Source of the DNA: Candidatus Limnocylindrales bacterium
GTDB lineage: Bacteria > Moduliflexota > Moduliflexia > Moduliflexales > JAUQPW01
DNA length: 61,572 nucleotides
NCBI GenBank assembly: GCA_035559535.1
Contig: DATMBG010000033.1
Span: 1 to 61,572 of the forward strand
Reading direction: 5' to 3'
The position numbers and the translations under genes are program-made. The notes under the pieces were generated by a model that saw only the letters and a list, made by a program, of their open reading frames with translations, was not told the origin of the DNA and ran no database searches. Shown one piece after another: positions 8,568 through 19,695 of this stretch (positions are counted from its first letter, which is position 1; each line of letters begins with the position of its first letter).

Positions 8568-8583
8568 CGCAATCAATATGCCA
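8568..8583 (-). promoter_or_regulatory. Candidate sigma-54 promoter of DUF2267 paralogue 1
   Basis: On the minus strand TGGCAT-ATTGA-TTGCG fits the -24/-12 pattern with GG-N10-GC. It ends 47 bp before the ATG at 8521. An enhancer-like dyad at 8787-8803 is centred about 210 bp upstream. Confidence 0.8.
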
Positions 8584-8786
8584 AACCTCTTCAGGAATTG
8601 GCCTGGAATGCATCATCTGAAAATTGATAAGTTACGGTCTTGGCAGTCTTTCTCAGACCTTCCCTCACCTCAGGGCACATCTCCAATACTATCCTTGACC
8701 CTCTTCGAAACCCGGCTTTGGAATGGAAAGTTTGTTTTTTGTGGTAGGATTTGCAAAATAAGCATAAAACCCCCTGTGAAAGGCTG

Positions 8787-8925
8787 TGTCTTAATTCCTG
8801 AAACCGTTCGAGTCTCCCATAAAAAGGGGTTTTTATCAAAAAGGTAAAATTTTTGTCTTAATCTCTGACATATCTCTTTATCTTGTAAATAGGAGATTTT
8901 GTTAGTATTGTAAAATTTTATGACA
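8787..8925. promoter_or_regulatory. Enhancer cassette B: three TGTC-N9-GACA-like sites
   Basis: The dyads lie at 8787-8803 (TGTC-N9-GAAA), 8854-8870 (perfect TGTC-N9-GACA) and 8909-8925 (TGTA-N9-GACA), with centres 67 and 55 bp apart. Read on the minus strand, the order and internal bases match cassettes D and E, including a TTACAATACTAACAAA stretch close to the TTACAATACCAACAAA of cassette E. The cassette lies between the divergent promoters of the two DUF2267 genes. The rest of 8584-9191 holds no convincing gene. Confidence 0.7.
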
Positions 8926-9191
8926 GAAAAAAGAGTTTTCCCTACAAAAAATTAAACTCTATCGAATATTGTAGAAATCCTATCCTAATTTAGAGTATTA
9001 TATAATATTTTTTCTTAATATTAAACCTTTGTAGACCTCAAAACAGAGAACAGATCTTTCTCTCTTCTAAGAATAGAGTAACTACGGGCGACTTATATCA
9101 ACAGATAGTCTGTGACAGGGTCGTCTATTATACCGATTCATCAAAGTAGTCGTACAAAAAGGAAATGGATTCCCCCCTTATTTCGAGGTTT

Positions 9192-9207
9192 TGGCATAAC
9201 CATTGCC
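9192..9207 (+). promoter_or_regulatory. Candidate sigma-54 promoter of DUF2267 paralogue 2
   Basis: TGGCAT-AACCA-TTGCC fits the sigma-54 pattern with GG-N10-GC. It lies 179 bp before the ATG at 9386. The leader contains a 17-codon frame (9268-9321, starting MPYGYFPP) that could be a leader peptide, although this is weak. Confidence 0.75.
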
Positions 9208-9926: not shown

Positions 9927-9942
9927 TGGCATAGTTATTGCC
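9927..9942 (+). promoter_or_regulatory. Candidate sigma-54 promoter of hsp20
   Basis: TGGCAT-AGTTA-TTGCC fits the -24/-12 pattern and resembles the promoter at 9192. It is 235 bp before the Hsp20 start codon. I find no clear TGTC-N9-GACA dyad in the 100 bp between it and the upstream gene, so any enhancer would lie further upstream. Confidence 0.65.
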
Positions 9943-13900: not shown

Positions 13901-14362
13901 CTAACGTCGTCTCCAACCAGCCCAAACCGGAAAACCCTTCTCATCCCGAAGCTTTAATACTTCCTCACCCTTTTTGACCTCAGCCGCAATGATAGCCGGT
14001 TTTCCTTCAAAGGTGATCCTCGAACCGGTAATCTCAACTTTGTCCCCGGGCTCAATCTTGGTATCCTGGTTCTCCAGGTACCAGCTCGGTCCTAAATGAA
14101 CCGCAATGGTCTCCTGATCCGTTTTCACTGTCAGATGGATGCCTTCAAACATCCCTTTCATAGGAGTAAATCTCTCCACACTGACCACCTCTCCACTAAG
14201 GGTTTCAACGGTTTTGGGGTCATACATCTTCCCATACGGGGTTCCTATCCCCCATCCCCCACCCCCTCTCCATTTTATGCCCCGTTGGGTGGCAAAAGTC
14301 TCTAGGGTAAGAAAAAGACTCATAAGGAAAATCATTATTACCATAGTCCCGACCTTTTTCAT
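13901..14362 (-). CDS. Secreted OB-fold-like protein
   Basis: This is a 153-residue exported protein with an N-terminal signal peptide (residues 1-24, ending F-A-T-Q). The mature part begins with a Gly/Trp-rich segment. It is followed by V-E-T-L-S-G-E-V-V-S-V-E-R, H-L-G-P-S-W-Y-L-E-N and K-I-E-P-G-D-K-V-E-I-T-G-S, a small beta-barrel pattern resembling periplasmic OB-fold proteins such as YgiW or NirD-like types. Function is unknown. AAGGAGGACC precedes the ATG. A candidate sigma-54 promoter lies about 110 bp upstream in the shared cassette D. Confidence 0.78.
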   Translation of the reverse strand: MKKVGTMVIMIFLMSLFLTLETFATQRGIKWRGGGGWGIGTPYGKMYDPKTVETLSGEVVSVERFTPMKGMFEGIHLTVKTDQETIAVHLGPSWYLENQDTKIEPGDKVEITGSRITFEGKPAIIAAEVKKGEEVLKLRDEKGFPVWAGWRRR

Positions 14363-14472
14363 GTGGTCCTCCTTTTTGGTTGTTTTTAACCCACCCCATT
14401 TCAGCTAACTTTATGGAAAGACTCCCCTGCTATCAGGTCAAACCACCCGGTGACCAGACATTGAAGGAATAA

Positions 14473-14488
14473 TGCAACCGATAGACCA
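14473..14488 (-). promoter_or_regulatory. Candidate sigma-54 promoter of the secreted OB-fold gene
   Basis: On the minus strand TGGTCT-ATCGG-TTGCA keeps GG-N10-GC. The bases after it (TTATTC) are shared with the candidate at 16947-16962 in the paralogous cassette E, which supports both. Confidence 0.5.
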
Positions 14489-14599
14489 GGATTCATAAAA
14501 ACATCGGAATCTTGTTGTAAGATAGAACTATACAGATGATTACCAATAGCAGACCAAAGGTAAGGGGACACTTAGGGGAGGGTACAGGATCATGCCAGC

Positions 14600-14755
14600 T
14601 ATCTTAAAATCTTATGGGATCAACAAAAGCCTGATAATTATGAGGTCTATAGAGTAGTGTCAGAGATAAAGACAAAGACCTGAAGATATCAAGAAAATTT
14701 TTAATATTTATAAAGGGTTCATAAGAAGTATCAGACAGCATCAGAAATTAAGACA
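14600..14755. promoter_or_regulatory. Enhancer cassette D: three TGTC-N9-GACA-like sites
   Basis: The sites lie at 14600-14616 (TATC-N9-TATG), 14658-14674 (perfect TGTC-N9-GACA) and 14739-14755 (CATC-N9-GACA), with centres 58 and 81 bp apart. The outer sites lie 112-120 bp from the divergent promoters at 14473 and 14859. Long stretches resemble cassette E, for example TAAAATCTTA and AAGCCTGATA against TAAAATCTTA and AGGCCTGATA. Confidence 0.72.
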
Positions 14756-14858
14756 AAAAATAGAGGCAAGAATTCAAAATCCGACTGATGGAGTTTTCCT
14801 GTCAATTTTAAAAAATGTGAGAATTTAGATGGCAGTAGAATTTCATGTTTTGAAGCTC

Positions 14859-14874
14859 TGGCACAATAATTGCT
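14859..14874 (+). promoter_or_regulatory. Sigma-54 promoter of the small coiled-coil gene
   Basis: TGGCAC-AATAA-TTGCT is a near-perfect -24/-12 element. The next gene starts at 15011, 137 bp downstream, with AAGGAGG before its ATG. Confidence 0.85.
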
Positions 14875-15010
14875 GGATTTCTTTGTCAAAGTCCCTTACC
14901 ATAATCTAAACAATCAGGAGGTTGTGTAACGATTAGTTATTCATAGCCTAATTTATAGAACCCGCCCTATATCTGACTACATGGGTGGAAATTAGACAAG
15001 GAGGTTTATT

Positions 15011-15245
15011 ATGCCGTACTGTTGTGGTTATTACCATCACCATTTACATCCCCCCCCACTGGCTCCGCTGGATCTGGCCCGAACCTTATCCACCGTACCC
15101 TGGACGTTACCCTTTATCAGCCCGTGAGGATTACGTCCGGAGTTTAGAAGAGGAGCGTGATATACTGGAGCAGCGGTTGCGACGCCTGGAGCGAGAACTG
15201 GAGGAACTGCGTAAGGGGGGCCGATCTCAACAGGGACAAGTCTGA
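15011..15245 (+). CDS. Small His/Pro/Tyr-rich coiled-coil protein, frameshifted at a C8 tract
   Basis: The ATG at 15011 has an ideal AAGGAGG ribosome binding site, and its frame starts MPYCCGYYHHHLHPPP but soon reaches a stop. The neighbouring frame, which has no good start, continues with H-W-L-R-W-I-W-P-E-P-Y-P-P-Y-P and then a charged coiled coil (about 33 residues, E/R/L-rich) to the stop at 15243-15245. Removing one C from the run of eight at 15050-15057 joins the two into one protein of about 77 residues. Either the assembly has one extra C or the gene is truly frameshifted. Function is unknown. It is driven by a strong sigma-54-like promoter. Confidence 0.65.
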
Positions 15246-15659
15246 ATACTGAAATTTGTAGGAGTGAGCCCAAGGATCACTCCTACTTACGACCTCATTT
15301 CTGAATGGCGCCTGGACGGCAGGAAGTTGTTAATGGATGGTGTGGTATAATGGCACAAGCTTCAGGATCCAGCGGGTCATGTACGCCCCAGCCCGGGATG
15401 ACCCGGCCACTCCAGGTATCATGACTGCCCACGCCCGCCAATCCAGCGTTCATGCATAGGCTACACCCCTCAGCTTCAGTCCTGCTAAGCGATCCCATTG
15501 CCTGAGTCTTTCGGTGGTCCCGGCCACTGTCAATCCTTCTGGACGCATACCCACCTGCTTCAGGGTGTTGTCAATAGAGAGACTATGTCAGGGGGTTGTA
15601 TTCATAAGTAATTTGTTAAATGGGTTGAACAGCATCAAAAATTAGAATAAACCATAAGA
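15246..15659. other. Intergenic region, GC-rich patch and a degenerate enhancer-like site
   Basis: Bases 15290-15560 are visibly more GC-rich than the surrounding intergenic DNA and hold only broken frames, so this may be a gene remnant that I cannot identify. At 15633-15649 a CATC-N9-AATA sequence resembles the third site of cassette D, and its left flank is similar too, suggesting a decayed fifth cassette. Confidence 0.3.
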
Positions 15660-16631
15660 TCACGAGGTCTCGTGGTGTGGACAATGTAACAGTATGGGTA
15701 CAGAAGTACCCCGTAACACCTTATCAGCTACACTACCTATCAACAGACGTGTTAAGCCACTGTAACCATGCGTTTCCATGGCAATCAGATCTATTCCATG
15801 TTTACTCGACTCTTCGAGTATGATAGGGGATGGATTCTTACCGATAACGACTCTTGTCTGGATTCGTAGGGACACACTATCGCGCGCCCTTGCCTGCGCT
15901 TGCAATCGTTCCGCTAGACCAGTGAGATAGGCCTCTGCTTCCCTCTGCGGCTGATCTAGAAGTTGTTGTTCTAACTGAATTGGATATTGGGTGGCTGAGT
16001 AATCAATAGGGGTCATTGGCTCAATAACCCGGAGCAATGTATAGTCAGCTTCCATTAACTTACCCAGTTCTATCGCGTACTCTAACACCTGCTCAGCGAG
16101 GGTTGAGCCATCTAGGGGAATCAATATATGCTGGAAGATTTGCTCCTGGCTGAGATTCGGCCCAAATTCTTCTGTTTCCCGTGATCGAACCAACAAAATA
16201 GGGATTGATGCATGTCGTACAAGCCAATCTGTGACACTGCCGAGCCAGAAACGATTCAAAGCACCATATCCATGTGTGGTCATCACTATCAGATCTATAC
16301 CTGCAGTCGCTATGAAGTTATTAAGCGTCTCAGCAACCTGTCCTGGCTGTCCGTCAAGCAAGGAAGCAGTAACCAGAGTTGTCATATCGGTCGCCAGGTT
16401 TTCAACTACCTTGCTTAGGTATGCCTGCTCATATTCTTTAAGTCGTTTATCCAATGCCTCATCGACGGTAACCTTACTACTTATATAATCTACCTGCTTC
16501 CCTTCGATGGGTACATGCACAAGGACCAATCGAAGTGTTGCGTTCGCCCGACGCGCAATACTTCGCGCCAGAGGTAGGGCGTGTTCCGCAAAGGCCGAAC
16601 CATCGAGGGGGGTAAGAATAGATCGATACAT
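15660..16631 (-). CDS. Tandem-domain universal stress protein
   Basis: This is a UspA-family protein with two consecutive domains, 323 residues from the ATG at 16631. Each domain starts with an I-L-x-P-L-D-G-S strand (residues 5-12 and near 160) and ends with the nucleotide-binding T-H-G-Y-x10-G-S-V segment. The upstream in-frame ATG at 16682 is rejected because the family begins at MYRSILTPLDGS and GAGGG lies before it. UspA proteins support survival under stress. Two-domain forms are common near Hsp20 and similar genes. A weak sigma-54-like element lies about 320 bp upstream beyond a repeat. Confidence 0.9.
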   Translation of the reverse strand: MYRSILTPLDGSAFAEHALPLARSIARRANATLRLVLVHVPIEGKQVDYISSKVTVDEALDKRLKEYEQAYLSKVVENLATDMTTLVTASLLDGQPGQVAETLNNFIATAGIDLIVMTTHGYGALNRFWLGSVTDWLVRHASIPILLVRSRETEEFGPNLSQEQIFQHILIPLDGSTLAEQVLEYAIELGKLMEADYTLLRVIEPMTPIDYSATQYPIQLEQQLLDQPQREAEAYLTGLAERLQAQARARDSVSLRIQTRVVIGKNPSPIILEESSKHGIDLIAMETHGYSGLTRLLIGSVADKVLRGTSVPILLHCPHHETS

Positions 16632-16758
16632 ACTACTTTCCCTCAGGTTAGGAAGTCCGTCTTTCTGTTTTGACAATCCCAACCTGGGTTATGGATAAGT
16701 AACCTTTAGCACAACGGCCTTGATAATTTACTGATCCAAGTTTCAACAGCTACTTGAA

Positions 16759-16920
16759 CTTCGAATTTGTAACTGCTCACCCTCTCTCCCAACCCTTCTC
16801 CCACGCTGTGGGAGAGGGAAGTGGAATAGGATAGCAGATTGCTTCGTTATGCGCTCCCTCTCTCGAAGCCTCGGAAGAGGGAGTTCAGGGAGGTGAGGGC
16901 GAGCAATTACTCGAATTCTT
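16759..16920. repeat. MITE-like palindromic repeat
   Basis: The outer arms (around 16759-16800 and 16890-16920) are imperfect reverse complements built on TGCTCACCCTCTCTCCC and GGGAGGTGAGGGCGAGCA. Inside are two smaller hairpins, TCTCCCAC/GTGGGAGA and CTCCCTCT/AGAGGGAG. No coding capacity is seen. It lies between the UspA start and its candidate promoter. Confidence 0.6.
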
Positions 16921-16946
16921 ACAGAGCTATTTATCCTGAAGAATAA

Positions 16947-16962
16947 TGCAATCCCTGAACCG
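16947..16962 (-). promoter_or_regulatory. Weak sigma-54-like element in cassette E
   Basis: On the minus strand CGGTTC-AGGGA-TTGCA has GG-N10-GC but a poor -24 box. Its position and downstream bases match the element at 14473-14488 in the paralogous cassette D. It would transcribe towards the UspA gene. Confidence 0.3.
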
Positions 16963-17086
16963 AGGTCAATAAAAACTTTGAAACCCCTATCTTAGATATA
17001 GGATTCCACAGATGATTACAGATAGGAAATCAAAGTAGGGAAGACAATCTACTAAACCCCTTTGGAAGATATGGAGCCCCACGAGT

Positions 17087-17220
17087 TGTCCTAAAATCTT
17101 ACAATACCAACAAAGGCCTGATATTCATAGAATCTATAAAAGAATGTCAAAAAAAAAGACAAAATTTAAGGATATCAAAAATTCCAATAAAAGATATAAG
17201 TTTTATCAAAAATTAAGATA
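17087..17220. promoter_or_regulatory. Enhancer cassette E: three TGTC-N9-GACA-like sites
   Basis: The sites are 17087-17103 (TGTC-N9-TACA), 17145-17161 (perfect TGTC-A9-GACA) and 17204-17220 (TATC-N9-GATA), with centres 58 and 59 bp apart. The last site is 76 bp from the promoter at 17288. The cassette resembles cassette D over most of its length. Confidence 0.72.
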
Positions 17221-17287
17221 AAACAAGGATAAAAGCTTAAAAGCAGGATAGATCAAGGTCCTATATCATTCAAACCAATAACCGGTA

Positions 17288-17303
17288 TGGTATAGCTATT
17301 GCT
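17288..17303 (+). promoter_or_regulatory. Candidate sigma-54 promoter of the one-TM protein
   Basis: TGGTAT-AGCTA-TTGCT keeps GG-N10-GC and lies 59 bp before the ATG at 17362, giving a normal leader of about 45 nt. Confidence 0.7.
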
Positions 17304-17361: not shown

Positions 17362-17658
17362 ATGAGAGTCCCTAAATTTACCGAAATTCCCAAATTTATA
17401 AGGATTCTTTTAGTAATCCTGATTATTGTTCTTGTCTTAATTGCTGCCGGTATTATTTATGTTCAGCGAACCAACAATCGAATTACCATAACTATTGAGA
17501 CAGAAAAAGCCCAGAAGAAAACGGAGGAAGTTATTGAAAAAGGGAAAGAAGTTGGATCTGAAGCCTTAAAGCAAGCCGGTAAGACCCTGGAAAAAGCTGG
17601 CGAGAAGCTAAAAAAGGAAGAAGTAGAGCCGACTCCCCCCGACAAGGAAAAACCGTAA
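17362..17658 (+). CDS. Small single-TM protein with charged helical tail
   Basis: This 98-residue protein is not recognised. Residues 14-32 form one hydrophobic helix (ILLVILIIVLVLIAAGIIY). The rest is a Lys/Glu-rich predicted helix with heptad-like A/L spacing, ending in a Pro-rich tail. Orientation is probably N-in with an extracytoplasmic tail, reminiscent of small envelope-stress or YtxH-like proteins, but this is not a family assignment. GCGGAGG precedes the ATG. It is the direct downstream gene of a sigma-54-like promoter with cassette E. Confidence 0.75.
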   Translation: MRVPKFTEIPKFIRILLVILIIVLVLIAAGIIYVQRTNNRITITIETEKAQKKTEEVIEKGKEVGSEALKQAGKTLEKAGEKLKKEEVEPTPPDKEKP

Positions 17659-17836
17659 GTTATGGATGAGAGAGCCAGATTTTTAGCTTAAGGTTAAGGC
17701 AGGATACTGCTGCTTAACATCTCTTTTAGTGAGATGGAGGAATTACACATGGTTTTTTTGTTGTTGTTACCACATTTTAGAACGGAGTACAAGTTAAAGA
17801 TGATAGTTTTATAACTCTGTTGGAGATCTTTGCTTA

Positions 17837-18799
17837 ATGAGCCTGAAGCGCGTTCTGATCCTCACTGTCTTTCTACAGATTCATGCTATTTTCCACTTTT
17901 ATCCTACAGAAGGATCAGTTTCTGATATACTTAAAGACTTCTCCATGGGTTATTCTGATAAAGGATCCAATCAACACGTAGTGGTTAACATTCCGGCTTA
18001 TCGGTTGACTCTTTATACACGTGACGAGGGTGATTCTTGGAAAACTTTAACAATCCCCATCGGAATCGGAAAAGGTACAGAGCCTTCCAATGAAACACCA
18101 GGGGGTGAAGGTTATCTTTACGCCAAGGAGACCGGGGTTATCTTCCGATATGGAAGTGAGAATCCAAAGAACCTGATCGGAAAAATCATTAAGTATTCTT
18201 ACACCTTTGATAAAAAGACTTTAAAGCCCATTAAAATTCCTATGCCGAAGGATATGAAATCGGTGTTCATGATCATTTACAATCAAGAAACCCAAAGTGT
18301 GGACCAACAGTTTGTGCTCCATCAGACTACGGATTGGTATACTGTGCGGGCCCCGGCTTCTAATGGTTGTATTCGTATTGATGAAGAAGATATGCAGAAT
18401 TTCTATAACAGCCTGGTACCTGACGTGAAATCCGGTAAATTTCCTCTTCCTGTACCTATTTCTATCCATTACGAGATCGTGGAGTATGACCGTCATTCCA
18501 GAAAGCTCCTTCTCCATGCAAATATATATCATAAACCCTTGAATTACCTCGATGAAATTTTGAAAGTTTTGCATCAAGAATCCATCGATTTACGACAGAT
18601 CGATATTCCCAGGTTGAAATGGCGGATTGTGGAAGCAGAAACCCAATTTCAAATAGCCGAGCAATATATTCGAAAGAAATTGAGTCAGCCCCCTTTTAAA
18701 CGGCTCCTTTTAGACGAAGAGAAGCAGCAGCTCCACTATTCTCTCTTCCTAAGTGAGGTCTTAAATGAAGCCAGATCATCAGGTAATGAAAGATATTAA
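17837..18799 (+). CDS. L,D-transpeptidase (YkuD) family protein
   Basis: This is an exported 320-residue protein with a YkuD catalytic domain at about residues 48-210 that would crosslink or modify peptidoglycan. An N-terminal hydrophobic segment (residues 5-18) serves as signal peptide. The catalytic block includes V-L-H-Q-T-T and A-S-N-G-C-I-R-I near residue 180, so the nucleophilic Cys is present, but the usual S-H-G-C His is Asn here. The C-terminal 110 residues are helical and unassigned. It precedes a sigma-factor gene by 23 bp on the same strand. Confidence 0.85.
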   Translation: MSLKRVLILTVFLQIHAIFHFYPTEGSVSDILKDFSMGYSDKGSNQHVVVNIPAYRLTLYTRDEGDSWKTLTIPIGIGKGTEPSNETPGGEGYLYAKETGVIFRYGSENPKNLIGKIIKYSYTFDKKTLKPIKIPMPKDMKSVFMIIYNQETQSVDQQFVLHQTTDWYTVRAPASNGCIRIDEEDMQNFYNSLVPDVKSGKFPLPVPISIHYEIVEYDRHSRKLLLHANIYHKPLNYLDEILKVLHQESIDLRQIDIPRLKWRIVEAETQFQIAEQYIRKKLSQPPFKRLLLDEEKQQLHYSLFLSEVLNEARSSGNERY

Positions 18800-18822
18800 T
18801 TTTATAACCTATTATACCACCC

Positions 18823-19695
18823 ATGTCTATGAAACCTTCAAGGCTCCATAGCTTGACAGCAAGGGTTTTTACAGATAAAAGCCTGGGGCTTTATCTTCAG
18901 GAAATCGGTAAAATTCCCACTACCACCAGAAAAGAAGAACAAGAGCTAGCTGAAAGGATCCAACAGGGGGATCAGGAAGCTCTTAATCGTCTGGTTGAAG
19001 GGAATTTAAAGTTTGTGGTTAAAATCGCCCAGGGTTATCAAGGATGTGGGCTATCTCTGGCCGATTTAATCAATGAAGGAAATCTCGGGCTTATTGAAGC
19101 CGCTAAGCGGTTTGACCCTTCAAAAAAAGTTAAATTTATCTCCTATGCCGTTTGGTGGATCCGACAGGCCATTCTACGGGCCTTATCTGAGCAGAGCCGT
19201 ACCATTCGATTACCATTGAAACAGGGAGGGCTTTTGACAAAACTCGGCAGGGTATACAACGAGCTGATTCAGGAGAAAGAAGGAAAAGAGCCCACACCGC
19301 AAGAAATCGCTGAAAGGATGGATATTCCGGAGAAAGAAGTTCGAGCTATTTTGGAACTCTCGAAAAAGCCATTATCCCTTGATGTACCCTCTGTCGAAGA
19401 TGAAGAAGTTACCTTGCTGAATTTTATTGCTAATAAAACCCTGGCACCAGATGAAATAATCATCAAACGCGCTCTCGTTGAGGAGCTTCATGGACTTTTA
19501 GATGAGTTAGACCCTCGTGATGCAACCATTCTTCGACTACGATATGGAATCGATGGGGAAAAGCCGATGACACTGGAAGAGATCGGTAAACGCCTACATT
19601 TAAGTCGAGAGCGGGTTCGACAACTTGAAAAGCGGGCGAAAGAGAGGTTGAAAAGGCGGGCGGATGCTAAAAGTTTGGGAGATTTCCTAAGTTAA
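18823..19695 (+). CDS. Sigma-70 family RNA polymerase sigma factor
   Basis: This 290-residue sigma factor has region 1.2 (D-K-S-L-G-L-Y-L-Q-E-I-G-K-I-P), region 2 with D-L-I-N-E-G-N-L-G-L-I-E-A-A-K-R-F-D and S-Y-A-V-W-W-I-R-Q-A-I, region 3, and region 4.2 with L-S-R-E-R-V-R-Q-L-E. It lacks the long N-terminal region 1.1 and non-conserved region of a primary RpoD, so it is most like an alternative group 2 or RpoH/RpoS-type factor. It is not the sigma-54 that would read the promoters in this window. It closely follows the L,D-transpeptidase gene, and co-transcription is likely. Confidence 0.88.
   Translation: MSMKPSRLHSLTARVFTDKSLGLYLQEIGKIPTTTRKEEQELAERIQQGDQEALNRLVEGNLKFVVKIAQGYQGCGLSLADLINEGNLGLIEAAKRFDPSKKVKFISYAVWWIRQAILRALSEQSRTIRLPLKQGGLLTKLGRVYNELIQEKEGKEPTPQEIAERMDIPEKEVRAILELSKKPLSLDVPSVEDEEVTLLNFIANKTLAPDEIIIKRALVEELHGLLDELDPRDATILRLRYGIDGEKPMTLEEIGKRLHLSRERVRQLEKRAKERLKRRADAKSLGDFLS

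Follow-up and report, generated by a model that had tools for sequence, protein, structure and literature searches.

The closest described counterparts of the DNA reported here are the sigma-54/bEBP regulons of Desulfovibrio vulgaris, where the activator motifs consist of TGT and ACA half sites lying 9, 11 or 12 bp apart (PMC4641369). As is the case there, the cassettes described below combine sigma-54 promoters with upstream TGT-ACA dyads (PMC4641369), but they differ in carrying two dyads of opposite sense (M1 and M2) at a fixed spacing of 55-58 bp, flanked by promoters on one side or on both, and in forming a unit that in some copies can be aligned beyond the sites. Both dyads read TGT-N11-ACA, M1 resembling an inverted M2, and because they match the reported dyad type the module most likely belongs to a bEBP/sigma-54 regulon. 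In a literature search, no description of a two-dyad cassette of fixed spacing, of its motif or of its regulon was found, the Desulfovibrio work being the nearest.

A second point of comparison is offered by promoter propagation and mobile promoters in prokaryotes (Matus-Garcia et al. 2012, via PMC8049555) and by the transfer of intergenic regions (Oren et al. 2014, via PMC9944727). As presented in the passages of those two articles that cite them, these processes share with the present family the spread of non-coding control regions independently of genes, whereas the copies found here appear to be old, diverged, within-genome copies of an enhancer, activator-dependent and with sites under purifying selection.

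Layout of the two control regions

The window (the whole stretch of DNA analysed, 61,572 nucleotides) contains two control regions, D and E, whose parts and neighbouring genes are as follows.

13901-14362, minus strand: gene left of D, an OB-fold protein according to the earlier note, without a Pfam match
14473-14488, minus strand: leftward sigma-54-type promoter of D, TGGTCTATCGGTTGCA, from the promoter scan; degenerate at -24, facing the OB-fold gene, 16/16 identical in the genus relative
14533-14543, no strand assigned: CAGATGATTAC block in D, from the D/E alignment
14600-14616, plus strand: dyad M1 of D, TATCTTAAAATCTTATG
14658-14674, plus strand: dyad M2 of D, TGTCAGAGATAAAGACA, 58 bp from M1 start to start, from the genome motif search
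14739-14755, plus strand: third dyad of D, CATCAGAAATTAAGACA
14859-14874, plus strand: rightward sigma-54 promoter of D, TGGCACAATAATTGCT, a -24/-12 element reading TGGCACAATGATTGCT in the genus relative
15011-15245, plus strand: gene right of D, a small coiled-coil protein, its frame broken here and intact in the genus relative
15660-16682, minus strand: gene left of E, a tandem UspA protein
16947-16962, minus strand: leftward sigma-54-type promoter of E, CGGTTCAGGGATTGCA; degenerate at -24, facing the UspA gene, 16/16 identical in the genus relative
17009-17019, no strand assigned: CAGATGATTAC block in E, from the D/E alignment
17087-17103, plus strand: dyad M1 of E, TGTCCTAAAATCTTACA
17145-17161, plus strand: dyad M2 of E, TGTCAAAAAAAAAGACA, 58 bp from M1
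17204-17220, plus strand: third dyad of E, TATCAAAAATTAAGATA
17288-17303, plus strand: rightward sigma-54 promoter of E, TGGTATAGCTATTGCT, a -24/-12 element identical in the genus relative
17362-17658, plus strand: gene right of E, a one-TM protein with paralogs at C6 and C52

The earlier note had seen a series of blocks recurring in the same order in 14467-14874 and 16941-17303, and these are indeed present: GAATAATGCA (14468 and 16941), CAGATGATTAC (14533 and 17009), TAAAATCTTA (14604 and 17091), CCTGATA and the three dyads, with the plus-strand promoters that end both intervals located at 14859 and 17288. TAAAATCTTA is the core of M1 (TGTCYTAAAATCTTACA); M2 (TGTCAGARATTAAGACA) starts 58 bp past the M1 start in both regions, the third dyad following M2 at +81 in D and +59 in E. 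The first common block, GAATAATGCA, turns out to cover the -12 end of another sigma-54-type promoter, directed leftward, which had gone unrecognised, so that D and E are both divergent promoter pairs.

Several smaller features accompany these regions. The CAGATGATTAC block is exact in D and E, and other cassettes carry a loose echo of it (GATTA). In the genus relative, the M1 core of D has undergone a 12-bp tandem duplication (TTAAAATCTTAC TTAAAATCTTAG, L016:1-170), and its D region is split across two contig ends (L015:1 and L016:1; contigs C118 and C37 of G001), with about 38 bp absent between dyad 3 and the plus promoter. The frame of the coiled-coil gene is broken by a run of 8 C at 15057-15064, which may be a frameshift, a slippage site or an assembly error. 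Directly left of E, a hairpin repeat (16776-16906; terminal inverted repeats GCTCACCCTC...GAGGTGAGGGCGAGC; DNA fold z -4.3) extends the UspA leader; it has 38 partial matches in the genome and is present in the genus relative. Rfam matches, searched for structured RNA, were limited to tRNAs.

Homology of D and E

Pairwise alignment of 14461-14760 (D) with 16937-17225 (E) is collinear and in identical orientation, with 159 of 248 columns identical in blastn (64%, E=4e-20). That the resemblance might be no better than that of shuffled AT-rich DNA, as the earlier note had allowed, is clearly contradicted by a Smith-Waterman score of 142, against 38±6 and a maximum of 62 in 500 dinucleotide shuffles. 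When the regions are compared segment by segment, the signal is strongest in the 138 bp 5' of the first dyad (z=10) and extends through the 40 bp that link dyads 1 and 2 (z=6.6); between dyad 3 and the plus promoter nothing aligns (z=-1), and a reverse-strand control stays at chance level (z=0.2). An alignment across more than 300 bp had been anticipated for a duplication: the clear identity stands, with an alignable part of about 250-300 bp that stops at the third dyad, and the plus-strand promoters are conserved as sites with no alignable stretch around them. Of the 208 aligned positions that lie outside recognisable sites, about 145 agree (70%, counted with a leftward-promoter range one base off), and because of this identity the resemblance reflects shared ancestry, not shared sites alone.

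We therefore consider it likely that D and E are paralogs that have diverged from one two-way, non-coding control region, in an explanation that also takes in the sigma-54 mechanism and the growth of a regulon by copying discussed below. A rather unlikely alternative is that a larger tandem block, comprising the region and a neighbouring gene, was duplicated, with subsequent loss or replacement of the genes. In its favour, the two regions share one orientation and are separated by 2.5 kb, the arrangement expected after a tandem duplication, and the leaders 3' of their plus promoters are weakly similar (z=4.4 in this genome and 2.2 in the genus relative). However, the DNA left of the two intervals does not align (z=-0.9), the arrangement is the same in the genus relative, and the flanking genes retain no trace of homology: the proteins beside D and those beside E differ, as had been noted, and show no similarity today, in an analysis that covered two genomes of the genus.

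Two kinds of neighbouring gene were considered as carriers of the cassette and rejected. The paralogs of E's TM gene at C6 and C52 have no M1/M2 module beside them, though C6 has sigma-54 promoters of its own. As for co-duplication of uspA with its cassette, the cassette-adjacent UspA paralogs are 54-65% identical and their relations depart from the cassette tree, the closest to E's UspA being the UspA of C37:182412, whose cassette groups with cassette A and not with E.

Copying of the region itself, without its flanking genes, is favoured on these sequence comparisons because the flanks are unrelated, the TM-gene paralogs lack the module and the UspA genes do not follow the cassette tree.

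A genus-restricted family of cassettes

A plain DNA search of the genome with D returned only D itself; the copies are too diverged for such a search, and a motif search followed by a profile search was used instead. The M2 motif with at most 2 mismatches occurs at 16 sites in the genome against 1 in the control, on contigs C33 (the window), C37, C41 and C19, with sigma-54 promoters adjoining. Anchoring on M2 reveals M1 at a fixed upstream distance in almost every copy, and the profile of the module finds about 20 copies, and in 18 M1 and M2 are both clear. The spacing of the two dyads is 55-58 bp in 17 of these 18, the exception being cassette A (70 bp, about one helical turn more). On the M1 side, 16/18 copies have a sigma-54-type promoter within 260 bp, and the other two, B and C37:7556, have theirs at about 250-270 bp; on the M2 side, too, a promoter is present in A, B, D, E, C37:2791 and C41:5463. 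Two further cassettes of the window are laid out as follows.

619-1070, no strand assigned: cassette A, with promoters at 634 (minus) and 1055 (plus), M1 at 757, M2 at 827 (spacing 70) and third dyad at 906
8568-9207, no strand assigned: cassette B, its module on the minus strand, with M1 at 8925, M2 at 8870 and third dyad at 8803, all minus
8583 (minus) and 9192 (plus): promoters of cassette B, between two DUF2267 genes

Genes near module copies include stress genes (UspA, hibernation factor, hemerythrin) and respiratory genes (NosZ, cytochrome c oxidase, molybdopterin oxidoreductase, pyruvate dehydrogenase).

The module is present in the genus relative in similar or larger copy number than here, and absent from two order-mates at E<=0.01 in the same kind of profile search. 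A pattern scan across contigs of other genomes gave two matches, one in the genus relative and one in Massilia, the latter taken as chance. Since the copies described by the site models also served to train them, conservation between species provides a more independent test: identity between the two species is 96.9% for M1-side promoters, 95.6% for M1 and 97.4% for M2, against 88.1% for linkers and 89.1% for spacers (site versus non-site, Fisher p=1e-12).

The existence of a family raises the possibility that D and E came to look alike by convergence, the same regulator demanding the same sites, order and spacing, with no recent common region behind them. M1, M2 and the promoters do lie at similar distances in all cassettes, and outside the sites alignment fails for most pairs of cassettes (median z 0.6). 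For D and E, nevertheless, convergence is quite improbable and appears largely refuted by the non-site identity given above, along with the strength of the match before dyad 1; their raw score is the highest of 153 cassette pairs, for the upstream segment and the linker alike. The upstream segment exceeds z=4 in 18 of the 153 pairs, and several pairs besides D/E can be aligned across about 230 bp.

A tree of 35 cassettes (iqtree, ultrafast bootstrap), in which all ortholog pairs group (96-100), unites D and E with moderate support (85), and comparable groupings are A with C37:182412 (91) and B with the C19 cassette (85). Given the score rank and these comparable pairs, D and E seem to be the best preserved of several old duplications, and the duplication that produced them is older than the split of the two species, because the genus relative has both copies. 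The exact history, which rests on two genomes of the genus, is uncertain, as the support for D+E is moderate and other pairs align too. The earlier view that the regulatory region and not the genes had been copied is supported by the unrelated flanks, the sister position of the two cassettes, the presence of both in the relative and the TM-gene paralogs without a module, with the amendment that D/E is no one-off but the top-scoring pair in a family of about 20. That a mobile or repetitive element (MITE-, REP- or mobile-promoter-like) carries the promoter sites by chance is hardly credible: there are about 20 dispersed intergenic copies, and mobile promoters are known in prokaryotes (Matus-Garcia et al. 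2012, as cited in PMC8049555), but no terminal inverted repeats were found at the cassette edges, the copies are mostly 60-80% identical with no near-identical recent ones, they occupy orthologous positions in the second species, conservation is site-specific, and the module has no stable fold beyond shuffle level (z -0.5 and 1.1, DNA parameters).

Sigma-54 machinery, candidate activators and probable regulon growth

The genome contains 122 sites matching the sigma-54 -24/-12 consensus (GG-N10-GC core) against 22 for the reversed control, one rpoN and 28 strong matches to Sigma54_activat domains, and the motif search places dyad activator sites upstream of sigma-54 promoters. A sigma-54 regulon with a bEBP, in which sigma-54 is used in the cell, is the most likely reading of this gene and promoter content; the leftward promoters of D and E, imperfect at -24, count against it.

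Two candidate activators are encoded on C37, at 17732-19111 and 173809-175185, both on the minus strand. Both are NtrC-type response regulators (REC, sigma-54 activator AAA+ and Fis-type HTH domains), 74% identical to each other; the gene of one of them lies, together with that of a PAS histidine kinase, directly under the module at C37:20666. By sequence, a C37 candidate matches NtrC-family response regulators (PDB 4l4u, 1ny5 and 3dzd; ZraR, 1ojl); one candidate has GSFTGA in place of the usual loop GAFTGA. Counterparts in the genus relative are 98% and 74% identical to the first activator, and in four further genomes no full-length match exceeds 44%, so that both activators and the module have the same genus-restricted distribution among the genomes compared. 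From this shared distribution and the linkage on C37, the likeliest regulator is one or both of these proteins.

In this explanation D and E each comprise a leftward sigma-54-type promoter, an M1/M2 enhancer, a third dyad and, on the right, a sigma-54 promoter. A signal received by the kinase would lead to phosphorylation of the NtrC-family response regulator, which could bind M1/M2 (and the third dyad) and, through DNA looping, switch on transcription by sigma-54 RNA polymerase from one or both of the outer promoters. The signal is probably oxygen, energy or redox limitation, as suggested by the gene content (NosZ, oxidase, pyruvate dehydrogenase, molybdopterin oxidoreductase, hibernation factor, hemerythrin, UspA). 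From the family one can also predict which genes for stress and denitrification work together in this uncultured lineage.

The usual accounts of how a regulon gains members are gene duplication and point mutations that create new sites. In this genome, the roughly 20 related enhancer-promoter regions, several of them alignable beyond the sites and placeable in a tree with orthologs from a second species, make control-region copying a testable route of regulon growth. The regulon has probably grown in part by copying of the control region to new genes, with D/E as the best-preserved case. As proposed in the earlier note, such copying may plausibly have driven regulon growth by recruiting new members. 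It is a more tentative suggestion, somewhat short of an even bet, that a genus-specific regulon arose for the most part as a rigid two-dyad, two-way sigma-54 enhancer cassette (M1, 55-58 bp, M2, promoters outside) was copied within the genome and its activator was duplicated as well, and that the family is a record of enhancer propagation.

Sigma-54 promoters also occur apart from the module. An Hsp20 gene is preceded by a good one (TGGCATAGTTATTGCC, 9927-9942) with no M1/M2 of its own nearby, the B module lying about 1 kb upstream. Beside DnaK-/DnaJ-like genes on C41, a divergent pair about 90 bp apart (L074:3783 and 3871; C41:28782, minus, and 28870, plus) has no module and is likely served by another activator.
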